From contig OX637391.1 in the NCBI GenBank assembly GCA_951799425.1, positions 25,415,701 to 25,479,700 on the forward strand: DNA of 64,000 bases. Direction: 5' to 3'. The stretch comes from Ilex aquifolium (taxonomy: Eukaryota > Streptophyta > Magnoliopsida > Aquifoliales > Aquifoliaceae). Position numbers and translations under genes: made by a program. Within the stretch, counting starts at the first letter, position 1. Each line of letters starts with the position of its first letter. The notes beneath the pieces were generated by a model. It ran no database searches. It was not told where the DNA came from and saw only the letters and a program-made list of their open reading frames with translations. Positions 17,095 to 60,620 of the stretch are shown here, one piece after another.

Positions 17095-17150
17095 CCAGCA
17101 CCACCCGGACGGTGGTGGTGGTGTCTGGATGGTAGTGCTTATATAAATAC
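17095..17150 (+). promoter_or_regulatory. C ORF2 leader: CCGG palindromes followed by a TATA box
   Basis: CACCCGGACGGTGG and GTCTGGATGG units lie at 17095-17135, and TATATAAAT at 17140-17148. The wording, from CCAGCACC to GGATGGT, is nearly the same as an array in the LTR of the related element E (minus strand, 60571-60620), which also lies just upstream of a TATA box. I infer an internal promoter for ORF2. Confidence 0.6.
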
Positions 17151-17361
17151 CCAGTAGCTTGCAAAACCGATCAGTTCCAATTCCCTCGCAGGCCAAATAC
17201 GAAAACAACCGCTGTTCCTCAAAGATTTCTTCTCAAATCTGCTACATGTAACCGTTTTTCTTCAAATCTTCTTCGATCATTCACTTACCAATATCATTTT
17301 CAAGGTTTCTACCGATTGAAATCAGTTGAAAGCATGCAAAGAGAGAGAAATTAGTGAAAGA

Positions 17362-17555
17362 ATGGATCCAAGGCAAATAACGAGAGGTTCTTCGAGTTGA
17401 GCAAGAAGGAATCAACCTCCGCAACTTGAAGCACCTCCGCAACAACCACAGCCCGGAAATGTCTACAATGTTGAGGTATTTGAGAATGTTGAACAACAAG
17501 CCTGGTACAATGCTTATTTCATGTCTAAAACTATCATTCTTGAAAGGCCAGTAAT
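17362..17555 (+). pseudogene. C ORF2, N-terminal fragment
   Basis: The ATG at 17362 gives MDPRQITRGSSS, a TGA, then a Pro/Gln-rich stretch and VEVFENVEQQAWYNAYF. The reading ends where the minus-strand LTR of D begins at 17556. By position (after pol, after the palindrome leader) it is the start of the second gene, but the surviving part carries no domain I can name. The rest of the gene is not in the window. Confidence 0.55.
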
Positions 17556-19227
17556 TGTTTGCTCAAAAACGTTGTTGTTTCCTAACCTCTAAAAACTATC
17601 CCTTAGAATGTGTAGTGTATGGATAAAGGGGAGTGTCACTCTCCATTGGGATAGTGTCAAAAGAAAGGGCAACGAGAAAGGAAAATGAGATGGTGGAAAT
17701 GTGAAATGTGAATGCCCAAAAATTGTGTGTGTGTGTACAAAAGTGATCCCCAAGCGCAAGGAGACTTTCGCGGGTCGTGTTTTACTTGGTGGTATTCCAA
17801 GGTCGTTTCCACGGGGAAGGAAGTAAACCAAGGGGAAGGTGATTTTGAGTAAAAGAAAGTGTAAAATCTTTTGTTTGTTGAAAGTTGTTTGGTGATGTGT
17901 GCTTTGGTGAAAATGAAATGAGAAACAAATGTTGGCAAACCCAAGAGGTTACTCCAATAGGAATGCCATCTCAACTCGAATCCCTCTTTCAATCGAGCAT
18001 GAATGAACGATTGATTCGTGGGAAGCTAGGGATAAGAAGGGTGAGTATCTAAGCATAAACCGTGACTAGGCTATGGAATATCAAAGACTCACCAATTTAT
18101 CCATCCTCAACCCAGTCAAACCGAACCATTGAACTCTGAGAAAGGGAGGAGAATGAGTTGAAATAGCATACCCGAGTGGAGGTTCCCCTTGGTTTTGCCA
18201 ACTAGAAGATTTAGCTACTCATGCTTGAAATGAAATCAACAAGGTAATGAGAATGCATTTCAAAGAGATGAAGTTCTTGAGTACATAAATGCAAGAAAAC
18301 ATAAGCTATAAGAGAATGCATTTAAAAACCATTTTACAGCTAAGAAAATAAAGAACTTTGTTGCATTAATGGTAGAAGCTTAAAAGAGCATTAAACTAGC
18401 AATGAACTTGAAGGAGAACAACATTAATGATATTAAATGAAGCTTGAATAGTTCTTACAGCAGATTACAAGACAATGTAATGAAAAAAATGTAAAAATCT
18501 CAAGTTTAACTCTCTAGAACACTATTCATCATCTTCTCCAGACTCTCTCTCTCTATATCTATCTGTCTCTCCAATCCGCTGAATGCCAATGCTGGAGATC
18601 CCTTTTCCTCCAAAAACGTGCTCGGCGAGGTGCCCTAGACTCAGAAGTGACCTCCATCTGTAGGGGTGCAGGAGGAATGGGCTGGACAGAAGGGTTGCAG
18701 AGCTTGTCTGCACACCCAACTCCTATTCTCTTCTCTCTCCTCATTGATCACCTAGACTCCAAACTTGCAATCAAAGGTGTGAAAGGGGTGAATAGTATTG
18801 TGGGCGTGTCAGGGGAGCATGGGAGGTCTGTTGGTGGGACCCTCAAAGCAGCAGACATGAGTTGCAGAGCATTTGGGCAGATTAGGCAAAGCGTACCGGT
18901 ACGTCGAACTCCAGTGGCTTCAGCGTACTGGTACGCGTACCGGTACGATTAACTCCAGTAACCTTAGCGTACCAGTACGGTTTGGCTGACTTCTTGATTT
19001 TCTAATTTCCTCCTCTCCTGAGCTATCCCCAATTTACCTTTTCATCCTCATTTGTCTCAAATGGTTTGGGAAGGCCTTAAGAAGCCTCATTTAGCACCTT
19101 TTAACTGCAAACACCAAATATCATCGTTAAGAACTCAATTAACCTAACTCCCATCATTTAATCTCCAAAAACAATTAAAATAAAATGATTAGCACATAAA
19201 AATATACAAAGTTTTGTGCTAATCACA
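17556..19227 (-). repeat. 3' LTR of element D
   Basis: In element orientation it starts TGTGATTAGCAC after a polypurine tract and ends GAGCAAACA. It is 1672 bp, the same length as the H 3' LTR, and shares U3 and U5 wording with it while being clearly diverged. The 5 bp outside it (GTAAT, 17551-17555) should be one half of the target duplication; the other half is not seen. Confidence 0.88.
18891..18985 (-). repeat. CCGG palindrome array in the D LTR
   Basis: Four GCGTACCGGTACG-type units, some with one base changed, are separated by CTCCAGT-containing spacers. The same phrase of about 105 bp, ending in GGTTTGGCTGAC, recurs at 21144-21260 upstream of D ORF2. Confidence 0.85.
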
Positions 19228-19240
19228 CCCCTCAACTTAG
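19228..19240 (-). other. Polypurine tract of D
   Basis: In element orientation CTAAGTTGAGGGG directly precedes the LTR start. It matches TTAAGTTGGGGGG of H. Confidence 0.8.
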
Positions 19241-19529
19241 GTTTTGCTAGTCCCTTAGCAAAAATTTATTTCCAACACAAGACAGTGAGTATAACTCACA
19301 CTCAATCCATTTAATTAACCATTCATCCAATCAATTAAAAAGCACAAATCATAATGCAATTCCAAAATAACATAGACAAGATTGAATCCGAAATTGTGGT
19401 TTCTTCATTAATGTGTTCTGAATTTGGAGTACATAGAGTAGGACATCAAAAGAGACAAAATAGCCTACGACTCCATTCTATCTATATCCAATCCAACCCC
19501 AAAAGAAAAGATAAAAACTACAAAGCCTA

Positions 19530-20880
19530 CTACACATCATCCTCATCATCACCAGAACCATCACCCTCCTCAGACTCATCACCTTCATCATACTCCTCAC
19601 CTTCCCCAGACTCCTTCAGTGTCGTCATCATCATCCTCCTCCTCCTCCTCAACTGCTATGGGGGCAGAGGGGGCAGAAACATAGGGAGCAGTGGCTGGTG
19701 AAGTGGGGGACTTTTGGGATGGGCCTCCTAGGGAAAGTATGCACAAACAGCTCCTGCATCATTGCCCCCATACTCAGCACAATAGCCTTAATCCCATGCA
19801 CCGTAACCTCTAATGCATCGAGGCGCTGAGGGACTGAACGTTTAGGTGTAACAACGGATGGCCCAGCGGATGAAGATGCCCTGGGGGCCTCAGAACCAGC
19901 AGCCATGGTCTTTGCTCGCTTCCCTCGACTCATTGCTTTTCTTTTCTTCTTACTGGTTCTGCCGATTGCTCCAAACTCTGGGGGGTAATCTTGTCGAACG
20001 CATAGCCCTTAACTTTGAATTGCATGCACATCCGGGTTACCAAGTCCCCGAATGGCAGTTTGATCATAGGCTTCTGCGTCTCAGCAAAATTTTTCATTTC
20101 TTGCCAAATGAGAATAGCGAAGTCAATTGCCTTCCCGGACACGACTGCATCCAAAAGGGTCAGCTTCTCTAAATTTGGTTTCTTTTTCGCACCCCTTGGC
20201 GAAAGATTGCAATGGAGGAGCTTATTCAACAGTCCATAAGTGGGCTTCAACCTCCCACTTTGCACTGTTCCCTTGAATTCTCCAGGCTCCTAATACATCA
20301 ATTCTGTCGATTCAGAAATCTTCTTGGATTTGGTGACGTTATGAGGATAGATAGGTGTAGACCCAGATGGCCTCTCGTACCCACCCAGGAGTGTGGCAAT
20401 GACATCAGGGATCACCACAAACATTTTGCTCCGAACGTTGGTTTTCAAGATTTCCACTCCGTCCACCTCTACCACCCGAAGCATTTGGTAAAATTCCCTA
20501 CACATTGACAAGTTATACCCCTCAACAGGCTCAAACCAAAACTTCATACCATGTGCTTCGATAATTTTCACAGCCTCATTCCTTGGGGTAAGGGAAATGG
20601 AGTCCAGGTACCGTTCACAAGTGACCCCCTTCTCCCAGATCAGTCGATCCCTAGCCTCATCCTTGGCTTTCTTTCTCTGCTCACTCCTATCGCCACTCGA
20701 CCCCTCTCCACTTCTCTTGCGACCACTAGAGCCTTCGAGTGGAGGAGATTTATGTCCCACTGTTTTGGTGCGGGCCATGCACAACAACAGTGCCCCCATC
20801 GTCAGAAAAGTGAAGAGGGTCAAGAAGAGACCCTCAATCGGGTCCATGGTCTCTTGGAGAATCCCTATAGAACGAGCCAT
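19530..20880 (-). pseudogene. D ORF2 (putative plant transposon protein), frameshifted
   Basis: I place the start at 20880 (MARSIG) because K ORF2 begins the same way; an upstream ATG at 20943 is also in frame. A hydrophobic segment (GLFLTLFTFLTMGALLLCM) precedes MARTK, followed by a basic Ser/Gly/Lys-rich stretch. The conserved core has CERYLDSISLTP, GYNLSMCREFYQML and MFVVIPDVIATLLGGY. The frame breaks near 20280 and again near 19930 and 19650; an acidic tail ends at TAG 19530-19532. The core matches H ORF2 and the type annotated as putative plant transposon protein. Its function is not established. Confidence 0.75.
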
Positions 20881-21143
20881 CTGAGAGATTTTAGGAGAAT
20901 TTGAGAAATGAAGAGAGAAGAGGGTTTGGGGAATTTTCGGCACTTAGGGTTTCAAAAGGTTGATTTCCACTGAATCACATCACAAGGGAGAGGATTTGAG
21001 AGATTTAAGGAAGATTGGTGTGATTTGGAAGCCTAACAGTTGATTCGGGTGAGAGAGGAGTGAAAGGGGGGTTGTATTTTAGGAGGGAAATGAAAGGTGT
21101 TCCGAAAGAAGTCGATTAAAAGACCTAACCTTTGGCATCCCAG

Positions 21144-21260
21144 GCAAAGCGTACCGGTATGACGAACTCCAGTGGCTTCAGCGTACCGGTACGCATAGCG
21201 GTACGATGAACTCCAATAGCCTTAGCGTACCGGTACGTGTACCGGTACGGTTTGGCTGAC
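21144..21260 (-). promoter_or_regulatory. CCGG palindrome array upstream of D ORF2
   Basis: Five GCGTACCGGTACG-type units with CTCCAGTGGCTTC and CTCCAATAGCC spacers end in GGTTTGGCTGAC. The block is nearly identical to the D LTR array at 18891-18985. It lies about 265 bp upstream of the chosen ORF2 start. Confidence 0.8.
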
Positions 21261-21369
21261 TTTCTGAAAATTCCTGCTGAGTAACCCTTCACTACTCCTT
21301 TTCATTTTAGGACCTCCCCTATACATTCTAACACTCTCTTTATGACCTCTACTCTACCCTAAACATATA

Positions 21370-25708: not shown

Positions 25709-27309
25709 AACTCATTTCACTTACTTTTGAGCTTTAAATTGTCTAAGTTATGACGATTGAAGTCTTAACATCAATTTGTTGTTTTGTAGTGGAATGAAGC
25801 TAAATGTGGCCTTTAAAGACCCTCCCATACCACTTGGGATGAAAGGAGTTGAAATGATAGTTTGAGGATAGATCGGGAGCAAAGAAATCAAGAAATTCAG
25901 AAAAGGATGCATAACAGTACCGGTACTCGGTACCGGTACCAAATGGTACCGGTACCCAGTACCGGTACTGAAAACCTACTGGAATCACAGTACCGGTACT
26001 GATTTCCTGAAGTGCTCAAATTCTGCAGATCTGCTCAGCTGTTTTGTGGACCCCTCCATGCTTTTCTCTGACACGCCCACCTTACTGTTCATCATGATTC
26101 ACACTCCCCTCTAGACTTGTGGAGTGAAGGCATTGAATGAAGAGAGGAGGATGGGATGTGCTGGGTGTGCAGACATGCTCTGCCACCCCCTGTCTTTCCC
26201 TGGCTGCTGCATCCCTATGAAGAAAATCACATCTGTAGACCCACTTCTCTCTGCAGGCACGTTTGTGGAAAAGGAAGAGTCTCCTGCAAGAGAGATATTC
26301 ATGTATTACATTAGATAGTTTTAGAGAGAGAAGCTTTGGCGAGGAAGACAGTGAATAGTAGATTCTAGAGAGAGAAAGTTGTAATTTTCACTTATTTTTC
26401 CAGTACATTGCCTTGCATTCTTCTCTAAGACTCTTGAGAACTTCTTTTAATGCCATTAATGTAAGTCATTTCATGCTTTACACTAGTTTAATGTTCTTTC
26501 CCACTTTCTACCATTAATGAATGAAAGTTCTTCATTTTCACAACTATGTAATGGTTTTAAATGCATTTTCTTGTAGCTTATGAATTATTGTACTTTGTAG
26601 CTTTAGAATTTCATAGATTTGCAATGCACTTTTATTACATAGTTATTTCCATTCCAAGTATGAGTAGCTAAACACTTTTTGTTGGCAAGACCAAGGGAAA
26701 TCCTCATTTGGGTATACCATTTCAACTCTCTCTACACCCTCCCTTTAGAGTCCCATGGTTCGGTTTGACCGGATTGAAGGTGGATGAATTGGTGAATCTT
26801 TGATAAACCCTAGGCCTAGTCACGGTTTATGCTTAGGCATTCACCAACATCATCCTCGGCTTTCCATGAATCAACCGTTCATTCTTGCTCAATCGGAGGA
26901 GTGATTTGAGTTGAGATAGTATACCTATTGGAGGGACCTCTTGGAATTGCCAACGCTCGTTCTCTCATTCTAAGTTCACCAAAACACACTTCACCAAACA
27001 ATCTCCAACAACAAGAATTTTACACTTTCTTTTGCACTAAATCACTTTCACATTTGCTCACTTCCTTCCCTGTGGAATCGACCTTGGAATACTTTCCAAG
27101 TAAAACACAACTCACGAAAGTCTCCTTGCGATTGGGGAGCATTTTTGTGCATACACATTCCATATCTACATCATCCCATTTCCCTTTCCTATTGCCCTTT
27201 CTTTTCACACTATCCCAAAGGGGGAGAAATCCTTCCTTCCGCTCATACATTGCATCATTTGAAGGATAGTAGTTAAAGGGTTAGGAATAGGATTGTTTTT
27301 GCTCAATCA
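25709..27309 (+). repeat. 5' LTR of H, lacking its first 42 bp
   Basis: It matches 37366-38995 almost base for base and ends GCTCAATCA. The first 42 bp of the 3' LTR (37324-37365) have no counterpart: the sequence changes directly into minus-strand D pol. It also has one fewer 29 bp palindrome unit than the 3' LTR. Confidence 0.92.
25916..26001 (+). repeat. CCGG palindrome array in the H 5' LTR
   Basis: Five GTACCGGTAC cores, two of them in the longer GGTACCGGTACC form, are separated by AAAT, CCA and AAAACCTACTGGAATCAC-type spacers. The same wording occurs at 37573-37687 and 35344-35470. Confidence 0.9.
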
Positions 27310-27313
27310 TTTT

Positions 27314-27330
27314 TGGCGCCGTTGCCGGGG
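27314..27330 (+). other. Primer-binding site of H (tRNA-Asp type)
   Basis: TGGCGCCGTTGCCGGGG lies four bases after the LTR end. It is the classic Athila primer site. Confidence 0.92.
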
Positions 27331-27373
27331 AGGGCTAGTGTCAAATCAAGGAAGTGATTTCCGAACAACGGAG

Positions 27374-29028: not shown

Positions 29029-32000
29029 TTGGAAGATATGCTCCACAATTTCATTCAAACCCAGACCACCCTCAATCAAACCTTCACTAATTTCATGCAA
29101 AGCCAAACCACCTTCAATAAGGACATTTCGGCCCAACTCACCAAGATCACCAATGCCATTGGGTTGTCTCAACAAGAGAAGGGAAAATTTCCCTCTCAAC
29201 CCCAACAAAATCCCAAAGGTCAAAATGTGGTTGAGTTGGCCGAGACTTCCCAGGAGGGTTTTGAGAAACTCAAAGCTGTCACCACACTTAGGAATGGTAA
29301 ACAAATTGAAAAGATGGTGGTGCCAAAGTTGACACCAAAGACCGCATTGCCAAAAGAAAAAGAAATTGAGAGTGAGGCCAAAGAAAGTGTGGTCGACAAG
29401 GGCGAGTCGAGTGAAAAGAGTGAGAGAGATGGGGTTGATAAAGAACATGTGCTTGATGATGGTTTATGCTTTCCTTCTATGTCCGCCCCTTTTCCCCATC
29501 GTTTGAAGCCACCTCTCAAGGTGGCTAATTATTCTGACATTTTGGATTTGTTTAAGCAGGTAAAGATCAACATCCCGCTCCTTGATGCCATCAAGCAAAT
29601 TCCGTCATGTGCCAAAATATTGAAGGACCTATGCACGGTGAAAAGAAAATTGAATGTCCGGAAGAGGGCATTTCTCACCGAGCAAGTGAGCTCAATTTTG
29701 AGGACTAACACTCCTCCCAAGTTCAAGGACCCAGGCTGCCCCACCATTGGAGATTGCCGGGTTGAACAAGCTTTGCTTGATTTGGGTGCCAGTGTCAATC
29801 TCCTCCCCTACTCAGTATATCAACAACTCAAGCTTGAGGAGTTGAAACCTACTCCCATCACGCTTCAGCTGGCGGATCGCAGTGTTCGCACACCAAGGGG
29901 AGTGGTTGAGGATGTTTTAGTCCAAGTGGACAATTTCTATTTTCCTGTTGATTTCATTGTACTCGATACTCAACCTGTTGCGAATCTTTGCTCCCAAATT
30001 CCTGTCATTCTTGGTAGACCCTTCCTTGCGACATCTAATGCTGTGATAAATTGCAGGAACGGTCTCATGAAGCTAGCCTTTGGAAACATGACAATGGAGC
30101 TTAATGTGTTCACCTTATCCAAGCAACCGGGGGACGATGAAGATGCACATGAGGTTAACCGGATTGATACTTTGATGGAAGAGCACATGGAGATGATGAG
30201 CACCTTGAGTTTAAGAGAGGACGGGTTTGTTGATGAGGAAGAAGTGAATGTAGGATTGGATGGGCATGGAGAAGTGGAGAGTTTGAAAGGGGTGGATAAG
30301 TGGATCCCAACATTTGAAAGACTCCCACACCAAGAGAAGAAGATATTTCCATCCGATGTACAAAAGCCTACTTTGGAATTGAGGCCACTACCTTCCCACT
30401 TAAAGTATGCATATCTTGGGGAAGATGAATCATTCCCGGTGGTGATTAGTTCGACATTGGATGCAAAGCAAGAAGGAGATCTCTTGGAGGTGCTGTGGAG
30501 ACATAAGGGAGCAATTGGGTGGACAATTGCGGATATCAAGGGGATAAATCCTACCATTTGCACACACCGGATCTACCTTGAAGAAGATGCAAAACCATCT
30601 CGCCAGCCACAAAGGAGATTAAATCCGATCATGAAGGATGTGGTACGGGATGAGGTTTTGAAACTACTTGACGTGGGCATTATCTTTCCAATTGCCGACA
30701 GTAAGTGGGTTAGTCCCACGCAAGTAGTACCCAAGAAGTCGGCTGTGACTGTGGTAGAAAATGAGGAGAATGAACTCATTCCAACAAGGGTAATCACTGG
30801 ATGGAGAGTGTGTATTGATTACCGGAAGCTCAACTTGTGCACAAGGAAAGACCACTTTCCATTCCCATTCCTCGATCAAGTGCTAGAACGGGTAGCGGGG
30901 CATCTTTTCTATTGCTTCTTAGATGGATACTCTGGCTACAATCAGATAGAGATTGCCCTTGAAGACCAAGAGAAAACCACCTTCACTTGCCCCTACGGTA
31001 CCTTTGCGTATCGTCGCATGCCTTTCGGGCTATGTAATGCGCCTGGAACATTCCAACGTTGCATGATGGGGATTTTTAGTGATATGGTGGAGAAGATTGT
31101 CGAGGTGTTTATGGATGACTTCTCAGTCTTCGGGGATTCTTTTGAGGGGTGTTTGGAAAATTTGGAGAAGGTGTTGGAGAGATGTGAGGAGAAGAATCTT
31201 GTGCTGAATTGGGAGAAGTGTCACTTTATGGTGACGGAAGGGATCGTGTTGGGTCACATAGTGTCGGCAAGGGGCATCGAAGTTGACAAATCCAAGGTGG
31301 AGGCCATCTCCAACCTTCCCACGCCGACAACTATCAAGGGTATCCGGTCATTTCTGGGCCATGCAGGTTTCTATCGCCGATTCATTCAAAATTTTAGCGC
31401 ATTGGCCCGACCCCTGACCAATTTACTGTCTAAGGAGATTCCTTTTGAGTGGTCGAATGAGTGTGAGGCATCATTTAAAAAATTAAAAAGCATGCTTGTC
31501 ACGCCTCCGATCATGCGACCACCCAATTGGGATCTACCCTTCGAGCTTATGTGCGACGCGAGTGACTACGCGGTTGGCGCAGTGCTTGGTCAGAGGAAGG
31601 ACAATCGACCGCATGTTATACACTACGCTAGCAAGACACTTAATGAGGCACAAATGAATTACACTACCACTGAAAAAGAATTGCTAGCTGTAGTGTTTGC
31701 TCTTGATAAATTCCGTTCATATATCATTGGTTCACCTATTGTTATCTTCACTGACCATTCTGCTTTAAAGTACTTGTTATCTAAGCAGGATGCGAAGCCA
31801 AGACTCATTAGGTGGATCCTCCTCCTACAAGAATTTGACTTGATCATTAAAGACAAGAAGGGAGTTGAGAATGTCGTGGCGGATCACTTGTCCCGACTGG
31901 TGGCACAAGAGACAAATGAGCATATCCCTATCACAGACTCCTTCCCTGATGAGCAATTACTGTCCATTCATTCTCATTGTCCTTGGTATGCTGATATTTG

Positions 32001-33288
32001 CAATTATCTTGCAACAGGACAAATCCCACCACACTGGAGCCCTGAGGATAAAAGGAGGTTTATGGCGGACGTTAAGTACTTTTACTTCGATAATCCGTAT
32101 CTGTTCAAGTACTGCCCAGACCAAATCATGAGGCGATGTGTGCCTGAAAATGAGCAGCGGAATGTCCTTGCCTTCTGTCACTCCCAAGCCTGTGCTGGCC
32201 ACTTCTCCGCCAAGAAAACTTCTTCAAAAATTCTCCAATCAGGTTTCTACTGGCCTTCTTTAATTAAGGATTGTATTTCATTTTGCAAAGAATGTGATAG
32301 ATGCCAACGTTTGGGGAATGTGACCCGGAGGAATATGATGCCCCTCTCCCCTGTACTTGTCATAGAGATATTCGATTGTTGGGGCATTGACTTCATGGGT
32401 CCCTTCCCTATGTCGTTTGGCTATCTATACATCCTGCTGGCAGTGGACTACGTGTCCAAATGGGTGGAGGCTATCCCAACCAAGACTAACAACCACCGGG
32501 TTGTAGTCAAGTTCTTAAAAGAGAACATTTTTTCGAGGTTCGGGACGCCTCGTGCGATGATTAGTGATGGTGGATCACACTTTTGTAACAGGCCATTTGC
32601 ATCTTTAATGTTTAAATATGGCGTTACTCACAAAGTATCCACCGCTTATCACCCACAAACAAATGGCCAAGCCGAGCTAGCCAATAGGGAGATCAAGACC
32701 ATCCTTGAAAAAACAGTTAACCCCAATAGGAAGGATTGGTTTGAGAGATTGATTGATGCCCTGTGGGCATATCGTACTGCCTACAAGACAGTTTTGGGCA
32801 TGTCTCCCTATCGGCTTGTCTATGGAAAGGCATGCCATCTGCCGGTAGAAATGGAACACAAGGCCTTTTGGGCCATCAAGACTTTAAATTTCAATATGAG
32901 AATGGCCGGGAAACATAGGATGTTAGAAATGAATGAATTGGAAGAGATTCGGCGGGATGCATACGAGAGTTCAAAAATTTCAAAGGAACGGGCGAAAATC
33001 TTTCATGATAACTCCATAGTGAGGAAATCATTCGAGCCCGGGCAAAAGGTACTCTTGTATAATTCCCGCCTCTCCATTTTTCCCGGAAAGCTAAGATCCC
33101 GTTGGGATGGCCCCTATCTTGTCAAGGTGGCCTACCCCAATGGAGCTGTTGAGATCACCAACCTCAAAGATGGCCAAACATTCAAAGTCAATGGCCAAAG
33201 ACTTAAGCCATTCTTTGAGGGCTTTGAAAACCAAGTGGTGGAGGAGGAGTTAACCGACCCGGTGTATCCAGAAGTGATTGAGGAATAA
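29029..33288 (+). CDS. pol: H pol: protease, reverse transcriptase, RNase H, integrase
   Basis: The open frame really begins at 28714, directly after the gag stop and in the same phase; 29029 is its first ATG. Protease is [11 protein letters not shown] with Asp251. Reverse transcriptase has [12 protein letters not shown] and VFMDDF (Asp696, Asp697). RNase H has MCDASD with Asp843 and [10 protein letters not shown]. Integrase has an HHCC domain (CDRCQRL) and a complete triad, Asp1121, Asp1180 and Glu1216, with the standard 35-residue gap. A GPY/F module (RWDGPYLVK) follows and there is no chromodomain, as in Athila. All catalytic residues I checked are present, so the enzymes could be active if gag-pol were made. 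Confidence 0.94.
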
Positions 33289-33515
33289 CAATTGGTCCTT
33301 TGTTCGCATGTACAGTTTCCTTTATTTTAATTATGTCATGTTTTTATTTCATGTCACTTACTTGTTGTTGCTATATAACTTTGTTTTCTTTTGAATCAAG
33401 ATCTTGGTGTGTTCGTCAAAAGCTCGAATGCGAGGTGTTTTCTTACCCTTCTCATCTTTTATTGTCTTTCATTGCATATGCTATCTTTTTGTTGCATTGA
33501 GGACACTGCATGATT

Positions 33516-33529
33516 CAAGTTGGGGGGTG
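33516..33529 (+). other. Post-pol polypurine motif of H
   Basis: CAAGTTGGGGGGTG lies about 230 bp after the pol stop, preceded by CATTGAGGACA. It almost equals the terminal tract TTAAGTTGGGGGG at 37311-37323. Equivalents lie in K (46637-46650), D (the C-run at 23131) and C (16297-16310). It may prime internal plus-strand synthesis. Confidence 0.6.
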
Positions 33530-35230
33530 AGGTGCACCACTTTTTAGATGCACCAGATTTTTTTTTGTGTACTCCAATTTTGTGTTGCATTGGTACAAAA
33601 TATGTGAGAAATTTTGAAAATTTTTGATGAAAAATACCTTTAAGTTGATCTGTATTCCCTTATGAAGTGAGTATGAACTGGATGACATGTTGATTGTTGC
33701 TGTGAACCTTGTGCACATGAGCTTACTATAGAAATGGATCCTATGCATAAGTATCACATATGTATTGATTTTTTCGAACTCATCTGTATGTGATTTATGA
33801 ATTTGTAATTTCAGTGATTTACGGGTTGGATTCATGTTTTAAGCTTGACATAAGTAGTGGAGATGAGTAAGGACCCATGAGAGTTTTAGTGCCAAACCTT
33901 TTTGGAGGGAACTTACGTTTACTCAAAGAAAATTTTTTTGATATCAAGTTTGTTCAATAGTCTCATTATGCTTGCTTTGGTTAGTTGCATTTGGTTAGTA
34001 GACTGATTTGTCTTGATCATGTAATGCTCTCCCCATGTGGACCTGGAAGTGATCTTAGGCCATTGTTGAATACTTTGAGCCTTAGCCCTTTTTCTTGAGA
34101 AAATTTTATCCCTAGTGCCGTGATTGAGCCCATTTTAAAATTTGTTTCTATGCCACACATTTGACCAAGCCAATGCAAAATGATAAAAATCTATCTCACA
34201 TTGGTTGTTCCTAGAGCTGAATATGAGTGAGTGCAAAAGAGAAGGAAGTGTGGTGTGGAAACTCCAACAAAAGGGATGAATGATTTGAAACTCAAAGAGT
34301 TGAATGAAAATCCAAGAAAAGGAGAAAAAGGGCTGAAAAGAATAAAGAGTGATCAAAAGAAAAGGAAGATGTTAAGAAGAGTTAAGAAAATAAACAAGGG
34401 GTGTGGTGATGGTGAGAAAATCAAAATCCCATGAAAAGGAAGTGTTTTTCCAACATTAAAGTCTCTCACTCGGAACAACCCTCTTTGTTGTCCTTTTTCC
34501 TTCATTTCTTTTACGTAGATATCACCCCAAGGCCCCGTTACAACCCTTAAAGCCCTAAGTGATCTAGAGAAGCATGGGAGAGGCATATTTGTTAAAGAAA
34601 TGATAAGTTTAGTCTTACTACCTAATGCACTAATATTCCATTCATGAGACTATGCCAAGGTTGCCTCATTTTCATATATGAACTTCATTTTTGGATTACA
34701 TGTGAGCACTTTGTTTTGAACACAAGATTCCATATCACATGTACACATGGAGTGCATACCAGTATAACGTGAGTGCAGTTATTGCTTAAGAGTGTCCCTT
34801 GGTGAGTTTTGCATTGAAACTGAGTTTGTCTAGCCTGTCGAATGTGAATTCTGTTTCGTAAATGCCCAAATTACTTGTTTAAATTCACATGCACACGAGT
34901 TGAAAATTAATTGGTAGGTGCATACTTCTGACTAGCATTGGGGACTATGGTTTTGCTCATGTGCATCTAGTTCGTTCAATTAAGAAATTTGTTAAAAAGC
35001 TCCATGCTTACAAGAATGAGGGAATATTTCTCAAGTTATTGATATTGACATATTTTAGGAATGAATTGATTCTGAACCTTATGATGTTTATTTTGGGTGC
35101 TCATTTTGATAGTTGAGAACAGAATTTGAATTTTTGTATGATGAATGTTCATAGGTTTAATTCACCTTGCAATTTCAATCATAAAGTGAGCATGATGGTT
35201 CGAGTTGTGGGTTATAATTGGAATATATCT
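33530..35230 (+). other. H conserved non-coding block
   Basis: About 1.7 kb without a credible gene. It aligns with D (21370-23130, -), K (46652-48420) and in parts E (60890-62340, -). Shared phrases are TAGTGGAGATGAGTAAG, GATCTTAGGCCAT and CCCTAGTGCCGTGATTGAGC, then a purine-rich stretch at 34220-34440. Conservation between diverged families without coding suggests a role in the RNA or DNA. Confidence 0.7.
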
Positions 35231-35343: not shown

Positions 35344-35470
35344 AGTACCGGTACTCGGTACCGGTACCAAATGGTACCGGTACCCAGTACAGGTACCAAA
35401 AACCTACTGGAATCACAGTACCGGTACCAAGTACCGGTACCAAATGGTACCGGTACCGAGTACCGGTACC
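35344..35470 (+). promoter_or_regulatory. CCGG palindrome array upstream of H ORF2
   Basis: Eight GTACCGGTAC-type units (one reading GTACAGGTAC) run from 35344 to 35470. The first 80 bp are almost identical to the LTR array at 25916-26001, including the CTACTGGAATCACAG spacer. It lies about 340 bp before the ORF2 ATG. Confidence 0.88.
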
Positions 35471-35702
35471 GTCTGCCTGACGAGAAAAAAAAATTAGGGC
35501 TTTTAATTTCAAAACATAAATTCAACCTTTCATTTCCCTCATTTGCTCCTTCCCTACCTACTCCCCCCTTACCCGATGGCACTCCAAGGGTCAAGAACCC
35601 TTTCTCTCTCCCTCTTCACTCTCCCCATTTACTCCTCCCCTTCCTTCTTCCCCCCTACCGACGGCACTCCAAGGGTCAAGAACCCTTTTTCTTCCCCCTC
35701 AG

Positions 35703-35810: not shown

Positions 35811-37007
35811 ATGCCTCGCACCAAGATGGTCGGATCAGGACCAGAGCCCAGTTCTCCTCCTGCCATGGGTTCTGCCAGCCGCAAAAGAAGTGGAGAAGGC
35901 TCGAGTGGGGACCTTGAGAAGCAGAGAAAGAAGGCCAAGAGGGATGCTCGACGCCAGTTGATTGACGGTAAGAATGTGACCTGTGAACGTTTTTTGGATA
36001 GGCCTTCCCTTTCCCCCATTCATCCTGCTGTGAAAATCATTGAGGGGCATGGGATGCATTTCTGGTTTAAGGAGGTTGTGGGATATAATTTGGCTTTGGT
36101 GAGGGAGTTTTACCGTTCACTAAATTTCATTGAGGATGATGATGAGGGAGTGTTGAGAGCAAATGTCAGGGGTAAGATTATTGTGGTGACCCCTGATGTC
36201 ATAGCCACATGCCTTGGGGATTACCAGAGACCCCCATCCAGACCACCCGTTTATCCTCGCAAAATGGGTAAGCCGAAGACCAAGGAGGAGCTTGTCGAGT
36301 TGATGTATGAGGATCCTGCTACGTTCAGGGGAACCTTTCAGAGTGGGGGGTTGAAGCATGTTTATGGGATTCTTAACAAACTCCTTCACTATAATCCTTA
36401 CCCAAAATTCGCAGAGAAGAAGCCCAATGTGGAAAAGTTGAACCTTCTGGATACCGTTGTGTCGGGCAAAACAATGGATTTTGCCCTTATCATTTGGGAT
36501 GTGATGAAGGACTTTGCCACCACTGAGAAGCCGATGGCCAATCTACCATACGGAAGCTTGGTCACCCGACTTTGTGACCATGCTAAGGTTAAGGGCTATG
36601 GACTGGAAAAACTGACCCCCCCTGAGTTTGGAGCTATTGGCAGGGCCAGCAGTCAGAAAAGGAAGGCCATGAGCCGTGGGGATCGGGCTCAATCTGATTC
36701 TGAAGAGGATGTTACACCTGCTGTGCCCACCATGCCATTCAAGCCTGTTGTGAAACGCTCAATCCATCAGAGACTTGGTGCCCTGGAAAAGACAGCGCAT
36801 GAAATTAAGACCTCAGTCCAGGAAATGGCAACAATGTTGAAGGAGATGTATGTACACACATTTCCTGAGAAAGCTGTCCCAGAAGATCCGGCTGCTCCTT
36901 CAACCTCCAGAATGGATGTGGAGGAGGAAGATTCTGAGGCTGATGATGATGAAGAAGATGAGGAGGGGGATGAATTTGAGGGTGATGATGAGAGCGATGG
37001 AGAGTAG
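35811..37007 (+). CDS. H ORF2: putative plant transposon protein
   Basis: 398 codons, intact. The N-terminus is basic and Ser/Gly-rich (MPRTKMVG, SRKRSGEGSSGD, KKAKRDARR) and looks like a nuclear-localisation region. The core (about residues 60-290) has CERFLDRPSLSP, GYNLALVREFYRSL, IIVVTPDVIATCLG, LMYEDPATFRG, LNKLLHYN and LPYGSLVTRLC, matching D and K. This type is annotated in plants as putative plant transposon protein. A heptad-like stretch (LGALEKTAHEIK) and an acidic tail close it. It sits where Athila elements carry an env-like gene but has no membrane segment; D and K versions have one at the N-terminus. Its function is unknown. Confidence 0.85.
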   Translation: MPRTKMVGSGPEPSSPPAMGSASRKRSGEGSSGDLEKQRKKAKRDARRQLIDGKNVTCERFLDRPSLSPIHPAVKIIEGHGMHFWFKEVVGYNLALVREFYRSLNFIEDDDEGVLRANVRGKIIVVTPDVIATCLGDYQRPPSRPPVYPRKMGKPKTKEELVELMYEDPATFRGTFQSGGLKHVYGILNKLLHYNPYPKFAEKKPNVEKLNLLDTVVSGKTMDFALIIWDVMKDFATTEKPMANLPYGSLVTRLCDHAKVKGYGLEKLTPPEFGAIGRASSQKRKAMSRGDRAQSDSEEDVTPAVPTMPFKPVVKRSIHQRLGALEKTAHEIKTSVQEMATMLKEMYVHTFPEKAVPEDPAAPSTSRMDVEEEDSEADDDEEDEEGDEFEGDDESDGE

Positions 37008-37323: not shown

Positions 37324-38995
37324 TGTGATTAGCACACAACTTTGTATATTTTTAAGATGCTAATCAACTCATTTCACTTACTTTTGAGCTTTAAATTGTC
37401 TAAGTTATGACGATTGAAGTCTTAACATCAATTTGTTGTTTTGTAGTGGAATGAAGCTAAATGTGGCCTTTAAAGACCCTCCCATACCACTTGGGATGAA
37501 AGGAGTTGAAATGATAGTTTGAGGATAGATCGGGAGCAAAGAAATCAAGAAATTCAGAAAAGGATGCATAACAGTACCGGTACTCGGTACCGGTACCAAA
37601 TGGTACCGGTACCCAGTACCGGTACTGAAAACCTACTGGAATCGCAGTACCGGTACTCGGTACCGGTACCAAATGGTACCGGTACTGATTTCCTGAAGTG
37701 CCCAAATTCTGCAGATCTGCTCAGCTGTTTTGTGGACCCCTCCATGCTTTTCTCTGACACGCCCACCTTACTGTTCATCATGATTCACACTCCCCTCTAG
37801 ACTTGTGGAGTGAAGGCATTGAATGAAGAGAGGAGGATGGGATGTGCTGGGTGTGCAGACATGCTCTGCCACCCCCTGTCTTTCCCTGGCTGCTGCATCC
37901 CTATGAAGAAAATCACATATGTAGACCCACTTCTCTCTGCAGGCACGTTTGTGGAAAAGGAAGAGTCTCCTGCAAGAGAGATATTCATGTATTACATTAG
38001 ATAGTTTTAGAGAGAGAAGCTCTGGCGAGGAAGACAGTGAATAGTAGATTCTAGAGAGAGAAAGTTGTAATTTTCACTTATTTTTCCAGTACATTGCCTT
38101 GCATTCTTCTCTAAGACTCTTGAGAACTTCTTTTAATGCCATTAATGTAAGTCATTTCATGCTTTACACTAGTTTAATGTTCTCTCCCACTTTCTACCAT
38201 TAATGAATGAAAGTTCTTCATTTTCACAACTATGTAATGGTTTTAAATACATTTTCTTGTAGCTTATGAATTATTGTACTTTGTAGCTTTAGAATTTCAT
38301 AGATTTGCAATGCACTTTTATTACATAGTTATTTCCATTCCAAGTATGAGTAGCTAAACACTTTTTGTTGGCAAGACCAAGGGAAATCCTCATTTGGGTA
38401 TACCATTTCAACTCTCTCTACACCCTCCCTTTAGAGTCCCATGGTTCGGTTTGACCGGATTGAAGGTGGATGAATTGGTGAATCTTTGATAAACCCTAGG
38501 CCTAGTCACGGTTTATGCTTAGGCATTCACCAACATCATCCTCGGCTTTCCGTGAATCAACCGTTCATTCTTGCTCAATCGGAGGAGTGATTTGAGTTGA
38601 GATAGTATACCTATTGGAGGGACCTCTTGGAATTGCCAACGCTCGTTCTCTCATTCTAAGTTCACCAAAACACACTTCACCAAACAATTTCCAACAACAA
38701 GAATTTTACACTTTCTTTTGCACTAAATCACTTTCACATTTGCTCACTTCCTTCCCTGTGGAATCGACCTTGGAATACTTTCCAAGTAAAACACAACTCA
38801 CGAAAGTCTCCTTGCGATTGGGGAGCATTTTTGTGCATACACATTCCATATCTACATCATCCCATTTCCCTTTCCTATTGCCCTTTCTTTTCACACTATC
38901 CCAAAGGGGGAGAAATCCTTCCTTCCGCTCATACATTGCATCATTTGAAGGATAGTAGTTAAAGGGTTAGGAATAGGATTGTTTTTGCTCAATCA
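37324..38995 (+). repeat. 3' LTR of H, complete
   Basis: 1672 bp from TGTGATTAGCAC to GCTCAATCA. The palindrome array at 37573-37687 has one 29 bp unit more than in the 5' LTR. ORFs called inside it are non-coding by position. Confidence 0.93.
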
Positions 38996-48509: not shown

Positions 48510-48616
48510 AGGCAAAACCTTCCGGAAGGTTTTGCCTACTGGAACTTTTTGACCCAGACAGTAAGCAAAACCTTCTGGAAGGTTTCTGTCGACCTTCCGA
48601 AAGGTTTTGCCCAGAA
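48510..48616 (+). promoter_or_regulatory. CCGG palindrome array upstream of K ORF2
   Basis: Three AACCTTCCGGAAGGTT-type units, two with one base changed. The last two, joined by TCTGTCGAC and ending TTTTGCCCAG, repeat the end of the K LTR array (51030-51080) almost exactly. It lies about 280 bp before the ORF2 ATG. Confidence 0.85.
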
Positions 48617-50537: not shown

Positions 50538-52339
50538 TGTGATTAGCAAAAAAACATGACATATATTGTATGCTAATATGCCCCTCTACACTTTTTTTTT
50601 CATGAAATTGGGGAGAAATGCGTTTAATCTTCGTGTTGATGGATTTTTGTGTGAATGCAGGTGAAATGATGTAAATGACATGAGTTAAACCCCCATTGAA
50701 GTGGTTGAAGTCAATGAAGAAGAAGGGGGTAGCTTAAAGGATGGTCTAGAGGGTAAAGAAGCCAAGAAAATGCAAATTGGTTGAAAACCTTCCGGAAGGT
50801 TTGGGTAAAAACCTTCCGGAAGGTTTTGCCTTGGATTTCTTTTTCACAGCCAAAACCTTCCGGAATGTTTTGTCTACTGGAGTAAAACATTCCGGAAGGT
50901 TTTGCCTATTGGAGTGAAACCTTCCCGAAGGTTTTGCCTACTGGAATAAACCTTCCAGAAGGTTTTGCCTACTGGAATAAACCTTCCAGAAGGTTTTGCC
51001 TGCTAGCTGCTTCATTTAACTATTCATGCACAAACCTTCCGGAAGGTTTCTGTCGACTTTCTGGAAGGTTTTGCCCAGACAGCTTTTAACTCAAGCTCTG
51101 CCATTTGGGGGTCCCACTTACACTTCTCCAACAGATCCCCTGACATCCCCTGCACGTCTAGAAGCCTCCCCTCACCTCTACTTGGACTTGGAAGGCCATT
51201 GCAATAATGAGGAGGAGAAAGAAGAGGCATCCCTTTCAGCCCCCTATGATGGGAATCACACCACACAGGCTTGGGGGACACTCCATGGACGTTTTTGGCA
51301 AGCTTCTCCACTATTATTCAGCATTAGATAGTATTACATTGTAATATAGAGAGAGAGTCCGAGGAAGAAGATGAATAGTGCTAGAGAGAGAAATTAATAT
51401 TTCTGCATTTTCTTTCCATACATTGTCTTGCAATCTCTTGTAAGAATCTTCTAAGCTTTCTTTTTAGTCTTTAATGTCATTTACTGCAAGTTTCTTTCAA
51501 GTTTGGCCTGTCATTCTAGCTTTCACCATTAATGTTATTCAAGCTTTCTTCATTTCCTAGTTTAAAAGTGGGTATTGCATTTCTCTCTTTGTAGTTAAGT
51601 TTTCTTGCATTAACTTAACTTAAATATTCATTACTTGATAATATCTTTCCATTACATTATTGTCTTTGAATTAAGTATGAGTAGTTAAGCTTTTACGTTG
51701 GCTAATCCAAGGGAGACCTCCTCTTGGGTATGCCATTTCAACTCATCTTCATTCCTCCTCTCGGTGTACGATGGTTCGGTTTGACTGGGTTGGGTGTGGA
51801 CATGGTTGTGAGTATTTGATATCCCGTAGACTTGTTACGGGTTATGCTTGGATCCTCACCTCCATCGCGTCCCCAGCTTCCCACGAATCAATCGAGCATT
51901 TAGGCACAATTGGAGGAAGGTTTCGAGTTGACTTGGCATTCCCATTGGAGTGAACCTTTTGGATTAGCCAACACTTGTTTCCCATTTCATTTTCGATAAA
52001 AAAACACAAATCACAAACCTCAAACAACAAAAGATTTTTACATTTCCCCTTTTTACCAAAATCACCTTCAACACGATTCACCTCCTTCCCTGAGGAGACG
52101 ACCTTGGAATACAATTCCAAGTAAAACACGACACTCAAAAGTCTTCTTGCGCTTGGGAAGCATTTTTGTTCATCACACGCATTTTACACATTTCATTCAT
52201 TTCATCCACCACCATTCTGTTGCCCTTTCTTTTGACATCATTCCAAGGGAGAGTGACACTCCCCTTCACACATACACCATATAAAAATTGAGGGATGGTG
52301 TTTGGAGACTAGGAAAACTACAACAAAAAATATCAAGCA
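50538..52339 (+). repeat. 3' LTR of element K
   Basis: 1802 bp, from TGTGATTAGCAA to AATATCAAGCA. Its U5 half resembles the J LTR and its U3 carries the palindrome array at 50784-51080. It is followed by CTAAC (52340-52344), the expected half of a target duplication, inside a C-type LTR. Confidence 0.87.
50784..51080 (+). repeat. CCGG palindrome array in the K LTR
   Basis: Nine AACCTTCCGGAAGGTT-type units, several with one base off. Five are spaced about 30 bp apart by TTGCCTACTGGAATA-type spacers. The ORFs called across it are artefacts. Confidence 0.9.
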
Positions 52340-54377: not shown

Positions 54378-54589
54378 TCTATAATATAAAACAGAGCGGC
54401 TTCAACATCCAACGGTCTCAAATCAATTCATTCATCCAACGGCCACTAATTCTTCTTTCATTTCCCTCCAAACTCATCTCTTTCCACTCATAATTTTTTT
54501 TCAAATTCAAACCAACCCCAGTCACTTCTGTCAGAGACTCCCCAGCGACACCAAGGCCTTCTCTCAGACAAGCCATACCCTCTCTCTCT

Positions 54590-55482: not shown

Positions 55483-55562
55483 ATTCTACTCCAAACCACT
55501 TGTGTGTTATGCGGATGGAGTGTTTGATTCGCGCAATAACCGTTATGTTACTGTTAGGGAAG
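55483..55562 (+). pseudogene. Captured exon 1 of an S9 (prolyl oligopeptidase-like) gene
   Basis: An acceptor (TGTGGCAG) precedes an open exon reading FYSKPLVCYADGVFD, SRNNRYVTVRE, and a donor AG/GTACAC follows. It joins in phase to the exon at 55671, making the codon for Asp across the junction. The wording YADGVFD, NRYVTVRED is typical of plant prolyl-oligopeptidase/acylaminoacyl-peptidase-like proteins (the At5g36210 type, from memory). Only a few percent of such a gene is present, so it cannot encode the enzyme. Confidence 0.65.
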
Positions 55563-55670
55563 GTACACTATCAATGTACTGTTCATCCTTCAAAGACTCT
55601 GTGCTAATTCTTTCCTTTCATTAAGTACTTATTTATTTCTTGATTCAGTTATTACATTTCATCTTAATAG

Positions 55671-55742
55671 ATCGCCGTAAGAGTAGTTTGAACCCAACCA
55701 CAACTATTGTATCAGTAGACCTCAGCAATAACAACATCCAAG
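55671..55742 (+). pseudogene. Captured exon 2 of the same S9-like gene
   Basis: An acceptor (CATCTTAATAG) precedes the exon and a perfect donor (AAG/GTAAGT) follows. It reads RRKSSLNPTTTIVSVDLS, then NNNIQ, with the first Asp completed from the previous exon. LNPTTTIV after VREDRR is the matching continuation in the S9 family. The intron between the exons is 108 bp. Both splice sites and the frame are intact, so capture was from genomic DNA and fairly recent, or the exons are still spliced. Confidence 0.68.
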
Positions 55743-57962: not shown

Positions 57963-58043
57963 GGAGCCAGTTACTTTAAATGATGCTGGATTTAGAGGAA
58001 CTAAGTTCATTCTCATTTGCTATCTTTCAACATGGTCTTCAAG
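57963..58043 (+). pseudogene. Possible further captured exon, unrecognised
   Basis: A good acceptor (TTTATTGTTTAG) and donor (AAG/GTAAGT) enclose 81 bp with one open frame, EPVTLNDAGFRGTKF onward. I do not recognise the family. It could be chance. Confidence 0.3.
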
Positions 58044-60055
58044 GTAAGTCTCACAATGGGATTATATATTTCTTTAAAGGTTGTCCATAAGAGATTTCTA
58101 AGGTTTTGTTCCTTTCTTCTTTTTTCCCCTTTGTTGAGCCTGTGAACTTTCTTGCTAGCATATCGTTGTTTTGAAACAGTTAGTGCAATTATTTCTCTTG
58201 ATATCTCTCTCTCAGTTTTAATAATTTCCTGTGGTCACTGTCATTCAACTTGAACAATTTCAAATACATTCGTTAACAAGTAATTATGTTTTCCCTACTC
58301 TATGGGTATTTGTAATTGGTATGTTGGATTGTTGTGATAGATAGAACATGTCAATTGAATCTCACTTTTTTTTATAATTAAATTTTGTTGGGTCTTTGAT
58401 GGGTTAATAAGGAGTTGTTGGTATATGCCAAGTTGTCTCTATTGAATTCATGTTATGGGATTTAAAGACATTGACATAGTGATTTTCATAATTATCTTTT
58501 CAATTATTAAGCATACTAATTTTTTTGTTTAAAAAAAGTTAGAGTATACATTTGTTTCTATAAAATATACAACAAATGATCTTTGCATGGTAAATACAGC
58601 TGCCCCAAGCTTTCTATATTAAACTCACTTATTAAGCTCACAGAGTCATATATCAAGCTCACACAGCTGCCCCAAAGTCATATATCAAGCTCACAATTCT
58701 TTTGCAACAAAAGAAAAATATTTTTATTATTTTACTATACATATATGTTGATACGTTGGATAGCTGAAAAACCTATGTTCCCTCCTAATGAGTTTCATTT
58801 TTTTTGTAAATTTCCACGTACAATTTATCAATTAGGTTGATTTTTTTTTTTTTGGCATAAATTGAATGTTAATGACATTTGGCAATTGTGATTAATCCAT
58901 GCTAAACATTGCACTGATCAAATTAGTTTGCCTTTCATATATTGGTAATATGAGTTGTTTTGGTTTAAATTCAACTGTTGATTGTTTTGGTGATTTGATT
59001 CGAAATGGTGCATATAGGCAATTAATATTCAGTTGGGACAAAGTGCATCAGTTATCCTTCATCTTTTTTTTTTTTTAATTCCTCCCTCTTTCACTCCTCT
59101 CTCTCTATCCCTTTCTCTCTCTGTTAGGCCATCTCCAGCAACACCAACATCGCCAGCGACACAGCTATCGCCATTGGTATATAAAAATTATTAAATGTGT
59201 ATTTTTTTGGCATAAAGTTATATTTTGTTTTTTGTGCTAGATGTTAAAGGTGTAGAAGTGGACAAAAAGATTAAACTTTTATGTTGGTTTGTGTGGAAAT
59301 CGTAAACTTAAATATCCTACATCACTCCCAATTCGATATGAGCTCGATTATTTGATCGTAAGTCTTTCTCTATACTCCATATTTTTTCCTAGATAAATTG
59401 ATAATCTCTTACAGTCTCTCTAAATTCTTACCTATATCAATCTAAATCCTCCCCCCCCCCCCCCCCCCAAAAAAAAAAAAAACTACATACAAATGTGTGT
59501 GCTCATTAGTTTTTTAGATAATTCAGGGTAATGAAATTGATGACAATAATTATGTTGTATCCAACTAACGATAAAAGTAAGGGGTCTTATGTTTCGGATT
59601 TACAATTGTTTTATTTTGCCTCACATATTTCGATAATTTTTATATGTCAAATATTTTCAGGTATTCATGGAAGGATATGAAGATGAAGTTGAAGGTGTTT
59701 CTCTATTTGTGCATGTGTGTATTTTTTGTGTTACGTCTTTTGTACAATTAACTAATTATACATGGTTATGATGATTTTGGGTATGGAATGATGGTTGTTT
59801 TGGTGGTTGGGTATGTATTGAAGATTGTGGTGATATGGTGTATTATTGTGGTTATTATGTATAATTGTAAGTTTTATAGACAGGTTTAGATTTTTTTGGG
59901 CTTCTATTTTTAAAGGAAACTCTGCCCAAATTTCTTGAAATTAGTAGGGACTAGCTTGATGTTTTGGTGGTTGGATATGTATTGATTATTGTGATGGTAT
60001 GGTGAATTATGATGATTATTATGGTGTATAAACGAATTTAATTTTTCGTTACACT
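58044..60055 (+). other. Helitron right part without a recognised gene
   Basis: AT-rich. It holds the second leader-like copy (59087-59180), a run of about 18 C followed by about 13 A (near 59450-59482), and near 59930 the phrase GGAAACTCTGCCCAAATTT, which resembles the Tekay LTRs A, B and F. No gene is seen. Confidence 0.5.
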
Positions 60056-60082
60056 GTGCCTTCAGGCACGTGCAATTACTAG
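60056..60082 (+). other. Helitron 3' terminus: stem-loop and CTAG
   Basis: GTGCC/GGCAC with a TTCA loop at 60056-60069; outer CAC and GTG extend the stem past one bulged T. CTAG occupies 60079-60082 and T follows. Confidence 0.85.
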
Positions 60083-60511
60083 TATATCAATAAAACATAA
60101 TTAAACATCGGCATTTTCATAATTTAACCAATATTATACATATGTTAACCCTTCACTAAAGGGTATAAATAAACTACTCACACCCCATTGCTATAAACAA
60201 GCAAGAAGTGTGGGTGAGTTTCATTTCAATACTAAATAAAATACAGACACTAACACTTCTTTCCCAAGGAATAGTTGAAATACAACCACCCTTAATATCA
60301 GTTAAGACAAAAAGGTGGCAGAAGTTCAACTCTCCAAGTAGAAAGACATAACAGAAAGGTAGAAATAACATAATTATGGCTGGAAAGTAGGTTGGACAGG
60401 ATTTCCCCTTGGATTCTTGAATCTCTGTATGAATTTCTGTACTTTTTCTCTCCTTTGAATTCTCCCTGGAACTCCCCCTCTTCCACCACCCAAAAATGAA
60501 GGCTGCAAAGG

Positions 60512-60523
60512 CCTATTTATAGG
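60512..60523 (-). promoter_or_regulatory. TATA box of the E LTR
   Basis: CCTATAAATAGG, the same box as in C at 10378. The element leader follows. Confidence 0.65.
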
Positions 60524-60570
60524 CAAAGTAGGAAGCTGTTAGGGGAAGGATAACCTTGAACCGCCTAAGA

Positions 60571-60620
60571 GGACCATCCGGATGCCACCACCACCGTCTG
60601 GACGGTGCTGGTTTGCTGGA
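60571..60620 (-). promoter_or_regulatory. CCGG palindromes upstream of the E TATA box
   Basis: CCATCCGGATG and CACCGTCTGGACGGTG units lie 50 to 100 bp upstream of TATAAATA in element orientation. The whole phrase matches the C ORF2 leader at 17095-17135. Confidence 0.7.

Follow-up and report, generated by a model that had tools for sequence, protein, structure and literature searches.

Several Ty3-type long terminal repeat (LTR) elements lie within a 64,000-nucleotide stretch of the Ilex aquifolium genome (contig OX637391.1, positions 25,415,701 to 25,479,700; hereafter the window, whose own numbering is used below). Among them the related elements H and K on the plus strand and D on the minus strand carry arrays of short palindromes at two places, in the LTR and in the leader upstream of ORF2, an extra open reading frame (ORF) that in H follows pol. 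Within an element the two arrays have their wording in common, and between families the palindrome arms differ at both places together. We propose from sequence, at a probability of about 0.6, that the arrays form a cis-regulatory module common to the LTR promoter and the ORF2 promoter. On this reading a dimeric protein would recognise each array on double-stranded DNA as a series of binding sites, each made of two inverted half-sites of 4 base pairs (bp) on either side of a central 4 bp that in most families reads CCGG. The promoter of the full-length RNA would be served by the LTR array, which lies in the upstream part of that repeat, and an internal ORF2 promoter by the array ahead of ORF2, with a single factor acting on both. 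Half-sites would diverge by family, at both places at once, under selection for likeness together with block copying by recombination. The factor, if there is one, may well be a host transcription factor, at a little under even odds; the element's own ORF2 protein is a possible but less probable candidate, and something else a somewhat weaker one again.

Palindrome arrays at two places

All eight array stretches listed in the first-pass annotation were re-read and found to be present. In H, GTACCGGTAC-type units make up the 5' LTR array (25916..26001, plus strand; five perfect palindromes and one ACTGGA) and the leader array upstream of ORF2 (35344..35472, plus strand). A third array, absent from that annotation and longer than the 5' LTR array, was located about 250 bp past the start of the H 3' LTR (37573..37691, plus strand), with seven units spaced by 13, 16, 13, 31, 13 and 16 bp. 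It has two more units than the 5' LTR array although the two LTRs are 97.7% identical; the arrays are unstable. The D arrays are built of CGTACCGGTACG units, in the LTR (18891..18980, minus strand; spacings of 32, 12 and 32 bp) and in the leader (21148..21252, minus strand), and the K arrays of CCTTCCGGAAGG units, in the leader (48514..48615, plus strand) and in the LTR (50785..51076, plus strand); both LTR arrays again lie about 250 bp past the LTR start. The claim that the same array stands in the LTR and upstream of ORF2 thus held for H, D and K.

For the C/E family the two places had been reported from separate copies, and this was confirmed. The C leader array, of a degenerate CCGTCCGG/CCATCCGG type (17087..17139, plus strand) and with zero perfect CCGG palindromes of arm at least 4, aligns with the E LTR array (60570..60621, minus strand) along roughly 50 bp, the two being on opposite strands. 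A TATA-like word, TATATAAATA, follows directly after the C leader array (17140..17149, plus strand) and another, TATAAATAGG, lies about 50 bp beyond the array of the E LTR (60512..60521, minus strand); both were recognised by eye, and they point to promoters.

Perfect four-letter palindromes centred on CCGG and with arms of at least 6 (at least 12 bp) number 23, against a mean of 0.47 and a maximum of 2 in 30 first-order Markov simulations; with arms of at least 5 they number 30, against a mean of 1.6 and a maximum of 5. The observed-to-expected CpG ratio is 1.0-1.6 in the H and D arrays and 0.43-0.61 in the K, E and C arrays, that of the window being 0.52. The central CCGG of the first-pass annotation is found in H, D, K and a further family, N, but it is not general: the sites of family M read GCGC-N4-GCGC, on account of which CCGG was dropped as a rule.

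Arrays agree within elements and differ between families

The H leader array matches the H 5' LTR array at 95.6% over 91 bp, the D leader array the D LTR array at 90.6% over 96 bp, and the K leader array part of the K LTR array at 78.6% over 103 columns. Local alignment scores for own-element pairs were 153 (5' LTR) and 191 (3' LTR) in H, 135 in D and 83 in K, with 50 for the E-C pair, while scores across families were at most 43. Flanks of 200 bp from H and D scored 70 and 61 for LTR against LTR and 62 and 32 for leader against leader, those from D and K 50 and 18 for leaders and 22 and 34 for LTRs, and LTR against leader flanks within one element at most 23; the K flanks bear a weak likeness to those of other elements. 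In comparable cases, then, flanks are most alike when they come from the same place, and arrays when they come from the same element.

Further test families were taken from the same genome (800,232,872 bases in 103 contigs), from which all loci outside the window were drawn, namely M, N and a second K copy, K2. The latter, with its leader in locus L015 and its LTR in L058, has CCTTCCGGAAGG-type units at both places, as predicted beforehand. For N, the LTR lies in L016 and the leader in L059; we infer that they form one element, and treated them so, because their separation of 7.3 kb is close to the 7.5 kb of H. The N leader is decayed, with zero perfect palindromes, and aligns best with the N LTR, at a score of 107 where no other LTR exceeds 39; for a wider N window, used earlier, the score against its own LTR was 62 and that against the K leader 47. 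When H, D, K, N, M and C/E were compared, all six leaders and all six LTRs chose their own partner, and the diagonal sum was reached by one of 720 label orders; in this test the C/E pair is two copies, the N and M windows were chosen after sequence inspection, and M was stood in for by the best-LTR-match copy among three then at hand. The first-pass expectation that arrays match better within families than between them was therefore borne out in six of six families, and the joint change of the arms at both places was seen in the window as well as in K2, N and M. By family the half-sites read as follows: H, [AG]GTA; D, CGTA; N, CCTA; K, CCTT; C/E, mainly CCGT; and M, GCGC.

Family M keeps half-sites and gap

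Family M was sampled as 30 loci with DNA and a PF20167 match (L017-L046), from 150 scored out of 6661 candidates, and the piece downstream of ORF2 was taken for each as the LTR side. GCGC-N4-GCGC occurs at 84 sites in 36,000 bases on the leader side and at 56 sites in 33,030 bases on the LTR side, where GCGC-type sites had been predicted before inspection and were then found; the remainder of the M loci (70,212 bases) holds 0 sites. Both places carry sites in 24 of the 30 copies, the leader alone in one, the LTR alone in two and neither in three. Gaps of 3 or 5 in place of 4 gave 0 and 0 sites, a gap of 6 gave 28 and 7 (a further GC follows many M sites), and three control words of similar make-up gave 0 and 0, 0 and 0, and 0 and 1. 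The centre word is CTAG in 31 of 84 leader sites, and CCCT (21 of 56) or AGCT (12 of 56) in the LTRs. An exact word common to both places copy by copy was sought and rejected: of the 30 copies, 16 have GCGCCTAGGCGC in the leader and 5 in the LTR piece, with 4 having it in both.

That the downstream piece is the LTR is suggested by its start word in 22 of 30 copies and by piece L088, taken about 10 kb upstream of an M ORF2; its likeness to four M pieces starts exactly at the start word, and it has two sites of its own. In a second upstream piece, L087, the LTR border was sought and nothing was found. The first exact site lies 226-446 bp past the start word in the 21 copies where both were found. 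Two extra polypurine-tract-like words (AAGTTTGGGGG) were also observed between ORF2 and the LTR in most of the L017-L046 copies, about 1.1 and 1.45 kb past the PF20167 start and on the ORF2 strand, with another at the LTR border.

Register and spacing of the sites

The ACTGGA spacer word noted in H, D and K was confirmed, and its position relative to the palindromes is fixed. Of 13 occurrences in H, D, K and the chromovirus-type LTRs described below, 11 start exactly 14 bp past the left palindrome centre and two have no scored left unit; the 15 stretches examined hold two further ACTGGA matches, one in the C leader and one in M copy L046, and these depart from the 14-bp rule. For the 11 in-register words the next centre comes at 31-32 bp in nine, at 53 bp in the K leader and at 44 bp in one L014 unit, and N has a 32-bp spacing spanning a variant word. 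Spacings in 21 M copies fall mainly at 19-21, 30-31, 41, 50-53 and 60-62 bp, with a best period of 10.3 bp (R 0.87, n=75; R 0.66 for the 17 distinct values). The best period was likewise 10.3 bp in D (n=9), 10.6 bp in K (n=11) and 9.9 bp in a second GGTACCGGTACC group (n=22), and for pooled distinct spacings of at least 20 bp, those of 12-19 bp being excluded, it was 10.0 bp (R 0.58, n=43). The fixed 4-bp gap in M, together with helical phasing in several families, favours a dimeric DNA-binding protein.

Arrays outside ORF2-bearing elements

The pattern ACTGGA-N0-10-GGTACCGGTACC gave 100 forward and 81 reverse matches in the genome, and its reversed control 0 and 0. Among the matches listed, the spacer starts with AAAG or AAAA in 72 of 100, and seven loci with this spacer (L005-L008, L010-L012; L009 overlaps L008) have one LTR family in common. 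In L013 an LTR of this family (3716-6149) follows a pol with RVP_2, reverse transcriptase (RT) and integrase, and the primer-site type is different; the ACTGGA array is oriented opposite to pol. We presume this chromovirus-type element to be Tekay/Del-like. The H type of array, ACTGGA register included, therefore also occurs in chromovirus-type LTRs.

Eight of the 28 other listed matches were also taken (L050-L057). Three of these, L050, L051 and L053, are derivatives of Athila type whose 5.5-kb pieces gave no ORF2 match; L052, L056 and L057 resemble the chromovirus LTR start, and the other two are unclassified. The internal array of L050 is H-type and its LTR retains a single H-type unit; L051 is H-type at both places, yet recombinant. 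The first-pass annotation had held that free scattering of the same words elsewhere in the genome would speak against it, and part of this was seen: the 15 sampled loci comprise seven with one chromovirus-type LTR family, three Athila-type derivatives, three near a chromovirus-like LTR start and two unclassified.

Other arrangements were noted in passing. The GGTACCGGTACC arrays of L052 and L054-L057 are spaced by 21-22, 29-30 and 52 bp, three of the five resembling the chromovirus-type LTR start. In L048 (2548-2580) an array of ACCGTCCGGACGGT and ACGTCCGGACGT, 21 bp apart, adjoins an AT-rich TATATATTA stretch. L053 (2657-2730, 4993-5049) is a short mosaic of families with a zinc-knuckle-like ORF.

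The elements and the ORF2 protein

By sequence comparison the H 5' LTR (plus strand) runs from 25709, where it is cut, to 27309, and a primer-binding-site-like stretch follows at 27314..27331 on the same strand. Gag is present, followed by pol with protease, RT, RNase H and integrase in the Ty3 order (29029..33288, plus strand), ORF2 of 398 amino acids, which matches the PF20167 (Transposase_32) domain (35811..37007, plus strand), and the 3' LTR from 37324 (plus strand). The D LTR starts at 19227 on the minus strand, where a 217-amino-acid ORF2 fragment (20290..20943) matches PF20167 weakly, at 20.8 bits against a cut-off of 45; the K LTR starts at 50538 on the plus strand. H thus has the two features expected of an Athila-type element, a pol in Ty3 order and, after it, an ORF that matches PF20167, and the name Athila-type, as applied here to the elements, is a probable one based on layout, the ORF2 domain and the presumed primer-site type. 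The stretch between the H pol and the leader array (33458-34963) is about 76-85% identical (BLAST) in D, K and N, approximately the conservation of pol, and is retained in the ORF2-less derivatives L050, L051 and L053; no long ORF was found in it in H, K, D or L053, the longest being 107 codons and antisense. Scans of viral contigs with ORF2 and pol found no relatives. Four viral contigs containing the primer-site 18-mer were considered as relatives and rejected, having 64-68% GC and, against H gag, pol and ORF2, a sole match in one 39% stretch of L002.

The first 60 residues of the H ORF2 protein form a basic N-terminal part (15 K/R, 7 D/E) and the last 40 an acidic C-terminal tail (23 D/E, 1 K/R), and hydrophobic-heptad-like stretches were seen by eye close to the C-terminus in H and M. 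The highest hydropathy over any 19 residues is 1.16 for H and as much as 1.93 for relatives, making a membrane segment possible in some of the latter. Pfam matches of H ORF2 up to E 10 were PF20167 and a chance-level ApoL alone; DUF1985 and DUF287, the domains of VANC, were absent from it and from two relatives (hmmscan, E up to 10). AlphaFold2 models of three ORF2 sequences gave a mean pLDDT of 36.6 and no usable fold, and the homologue search returned P0002 and P0003 alone.

Weighing the explanations

Several observations weigh against a cis-regulatory module bound by a dimeric protein. No clear TATA box was seen by eye after the leader arrays of H, D and K. Spacings of 13 and 16 bp dominate in H (n=16) and in the first chromovirus-type group (n=26), which a period of 10.4 bp does not fit, and spacing values are related by descent and hence are not independent tests. 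In six of the 30 M copies, exact sites are missing from one or both places. M leaders of different copies score 85-334 with one another, and leader against LTR of one copy 24-43, so that the M places have half-sites and gap in common, not whole blocks. L053 combines an H-type internal array with a D-type LTR array, and no ORF2 match was found in the 9.9 kb of L013, the latter bearing on the version of the proposal in which ORF2 is the binder.

That version is a special case of the proposed module, and we consider it doubtful. ORF2 would bind the arrays as a dimer, in a sequence-specific way, so as to regulate or de-silence the element that encodes it, in the manner of VANC; arrays and protein would co-evolve, both arrays tracking the stepwise half-site shifts [AG]GTA, CGTA, CCTA and CCTT, and array carriers without ORF2, including chromovirus-type elements that had adopted the arrays, would exploit the factor in trans. 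The position of the second array immediately before ORF2 itself and the basic and acidic ends and heptad-like stretches described above are consistent with this. So are the predicted nuclear localisation signal of the sunflower Athila ORF with PF20167 (PMC11728184) and the binding of VANC21 to tandem motifs that diverge among related VANDAL elements (PMC5735166). The first-pass annotation had proposed a site co-evolving with a dimeric protein, and the dimeric DNA binder is favoured by the M gap and the phasing; ORF2 as that binder, however, is not supported in the form proposed, given the H-type arrays in ORF2-less chromovirus-type LTRs and Athila-type derivatives and the L053 mismatch, and finds neither a VANC domain in H ORF2 nor a usable fold.

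The same annotation had named gene conversion between the arrays as an alternative, and copying of this kind clearly contributes. The H and D blocks agree through their spacers, at the identities given above, and the H 5' and 3' LTR arrays are of unequal length. In L051 the LTR-start stretch 2180-2692, 99.6% identical to 4754-5266, enters internal sequence at the array. Over 2180-2774 and 4754-5266 this locus consists of LTR start and array fused to the post-internal-array sequence of relatives, which looks like a deletion through exchange between LTR array and internal array. Block copying in H, D and L051 thus accounts for part of the array agreement. Recombination alone, whether by gene conversion, template switching or unequal exchange between palindromes, with no function retaining the blocks, is nevertheless improbable as the whole explanation, since it does not account for the recurrence of the arrays at these two places across all families examined, for the ACTGGA register or for the phasing, and in M the half-sites and gap agree across places while centre words and spacers differ. 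Less probable still is a signal in RNA, in which transcript hairpins, or pairing of the leader array with the 3' LTR array, would act in translation or packaging or as a small-RNA source. Folding was stronger than in shuffled sequence in five of six arrays tested: the H leader (-96.9; shuffled -34.9, standard deviation 3.3), H LTR (-86.4; -34.9, 3.7), D leader (-51.9; -38.3, 4.3), K leader (-50.7; -23.1, 3.0) and M copy L018 (-79.0; -58.4, 4.4), that of the E LTR being unremarkable (-22.9; -19.4, 3.2). Palindromes of maize Sireviruses are small-RNA hotspots (PMC10760457, PMC5311732). Any repeated palindrome, however, yields strong folding, and an RNA signal needs neither phasing nor a strict 4-bp gap; core changes (CTGG 3, CCAG 7) show no G-U tolerant excess, although cases are few. 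The ACTGGA array of L013, moreover, runs opposite to the direction of pol, and this reversed orientation, taken with gap and phasing, argues for a dimeric protein on DNA.

Comparison with known systems

The closest published layout is that of the Sireviruses, which are Ty1/copia elements. Bousios et al. 2010 (PMC2829016), whose comparison covers Ty1/copia elements, described palindromic repeated-motif (RM) boxes in the LTR and also upstream of the env-like gene, the latter only in elements having that gene; box wording varies per element, and an internal promoter for the env-like gene was suggested. As in Sireviruses, where the motif lies 200-400 bp past the LTR start, the arrays studied here lie about 250 bp past it in H, D and K and 226-446 bp past it in M, and extra copies stand upstream of the extra gene, in the leaders of H, D and K and on the leader side of 25 of 30 M copies. 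The present elements differ in their Ty3-order pol (RT and RNase H before integrase in H) and in the Transposase_32 ORF2, and are not copia-type. Clusters of Sirevirus RM boxes form CpG islands; of the arrays studied here, those of H and D have the raised CpG ratios given above, and those of K, E and C have ratios near that of the window. The Sirevirus core is CGG-CCG, with or without bases between, in place of CCGG or the free 4-bp centre of M, and the available text of that account reports no own-partner tests across copies, no ACTGGA register and no helical phasing.

The system of VANC anti-silencing proteins in Mutator-like VANDAL elements, marked by sequence-specific binding and loss of DNA methylation, resembles the arrays in its tandem short non-coding motifs that diverge among related elements (PMC5735166, PMC10398659), and VANC is by analogy a candidate functional counterpart of ORF2. 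It differs in its DUF1985/DUF287 domains, which H ORF2 lacks, in the non-palindromic VANC21 motif and in that VANDALs are DNA transposons. An extra gene between pol and the 3' LTR is also found in sunflower Athila, whose PF20167 ORF provides the link of that domain to Athila (PMC11728184), and in Retand with its TRP28 ORFs (PMC11963269), and such ORFs of plant Ty3 elements are predicted to be nuclear or DNA-binding (both accounts). Retand resembles the present elements in having tandem repeats nearby, and differs in that its ORFs are antisense and carry Transposase_28 (PMC11963269). The available portions of these two accounts report no paired LTR/leader palindrome arrays, and no report of such arrays in Athila was found among the papers that the literature searches listed, as judged by titles and abstract openings. 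As far as these sources go, the two-place layout is known from the Ty1/copia Sireviruses, and what appears to be new is its presence in Ty3 Athila-type elements.

The two-place palindrome layout of Sireviruses thus gains a Ty3 counterpart, and the extra gene of a plant retroelement would be tied to the LTR promoter through a common putative regulator site. With the natural series of half-sites in H, D, N, K and M, simple binding assays could address what ORF2 does and whether control lies with the host or with the element.

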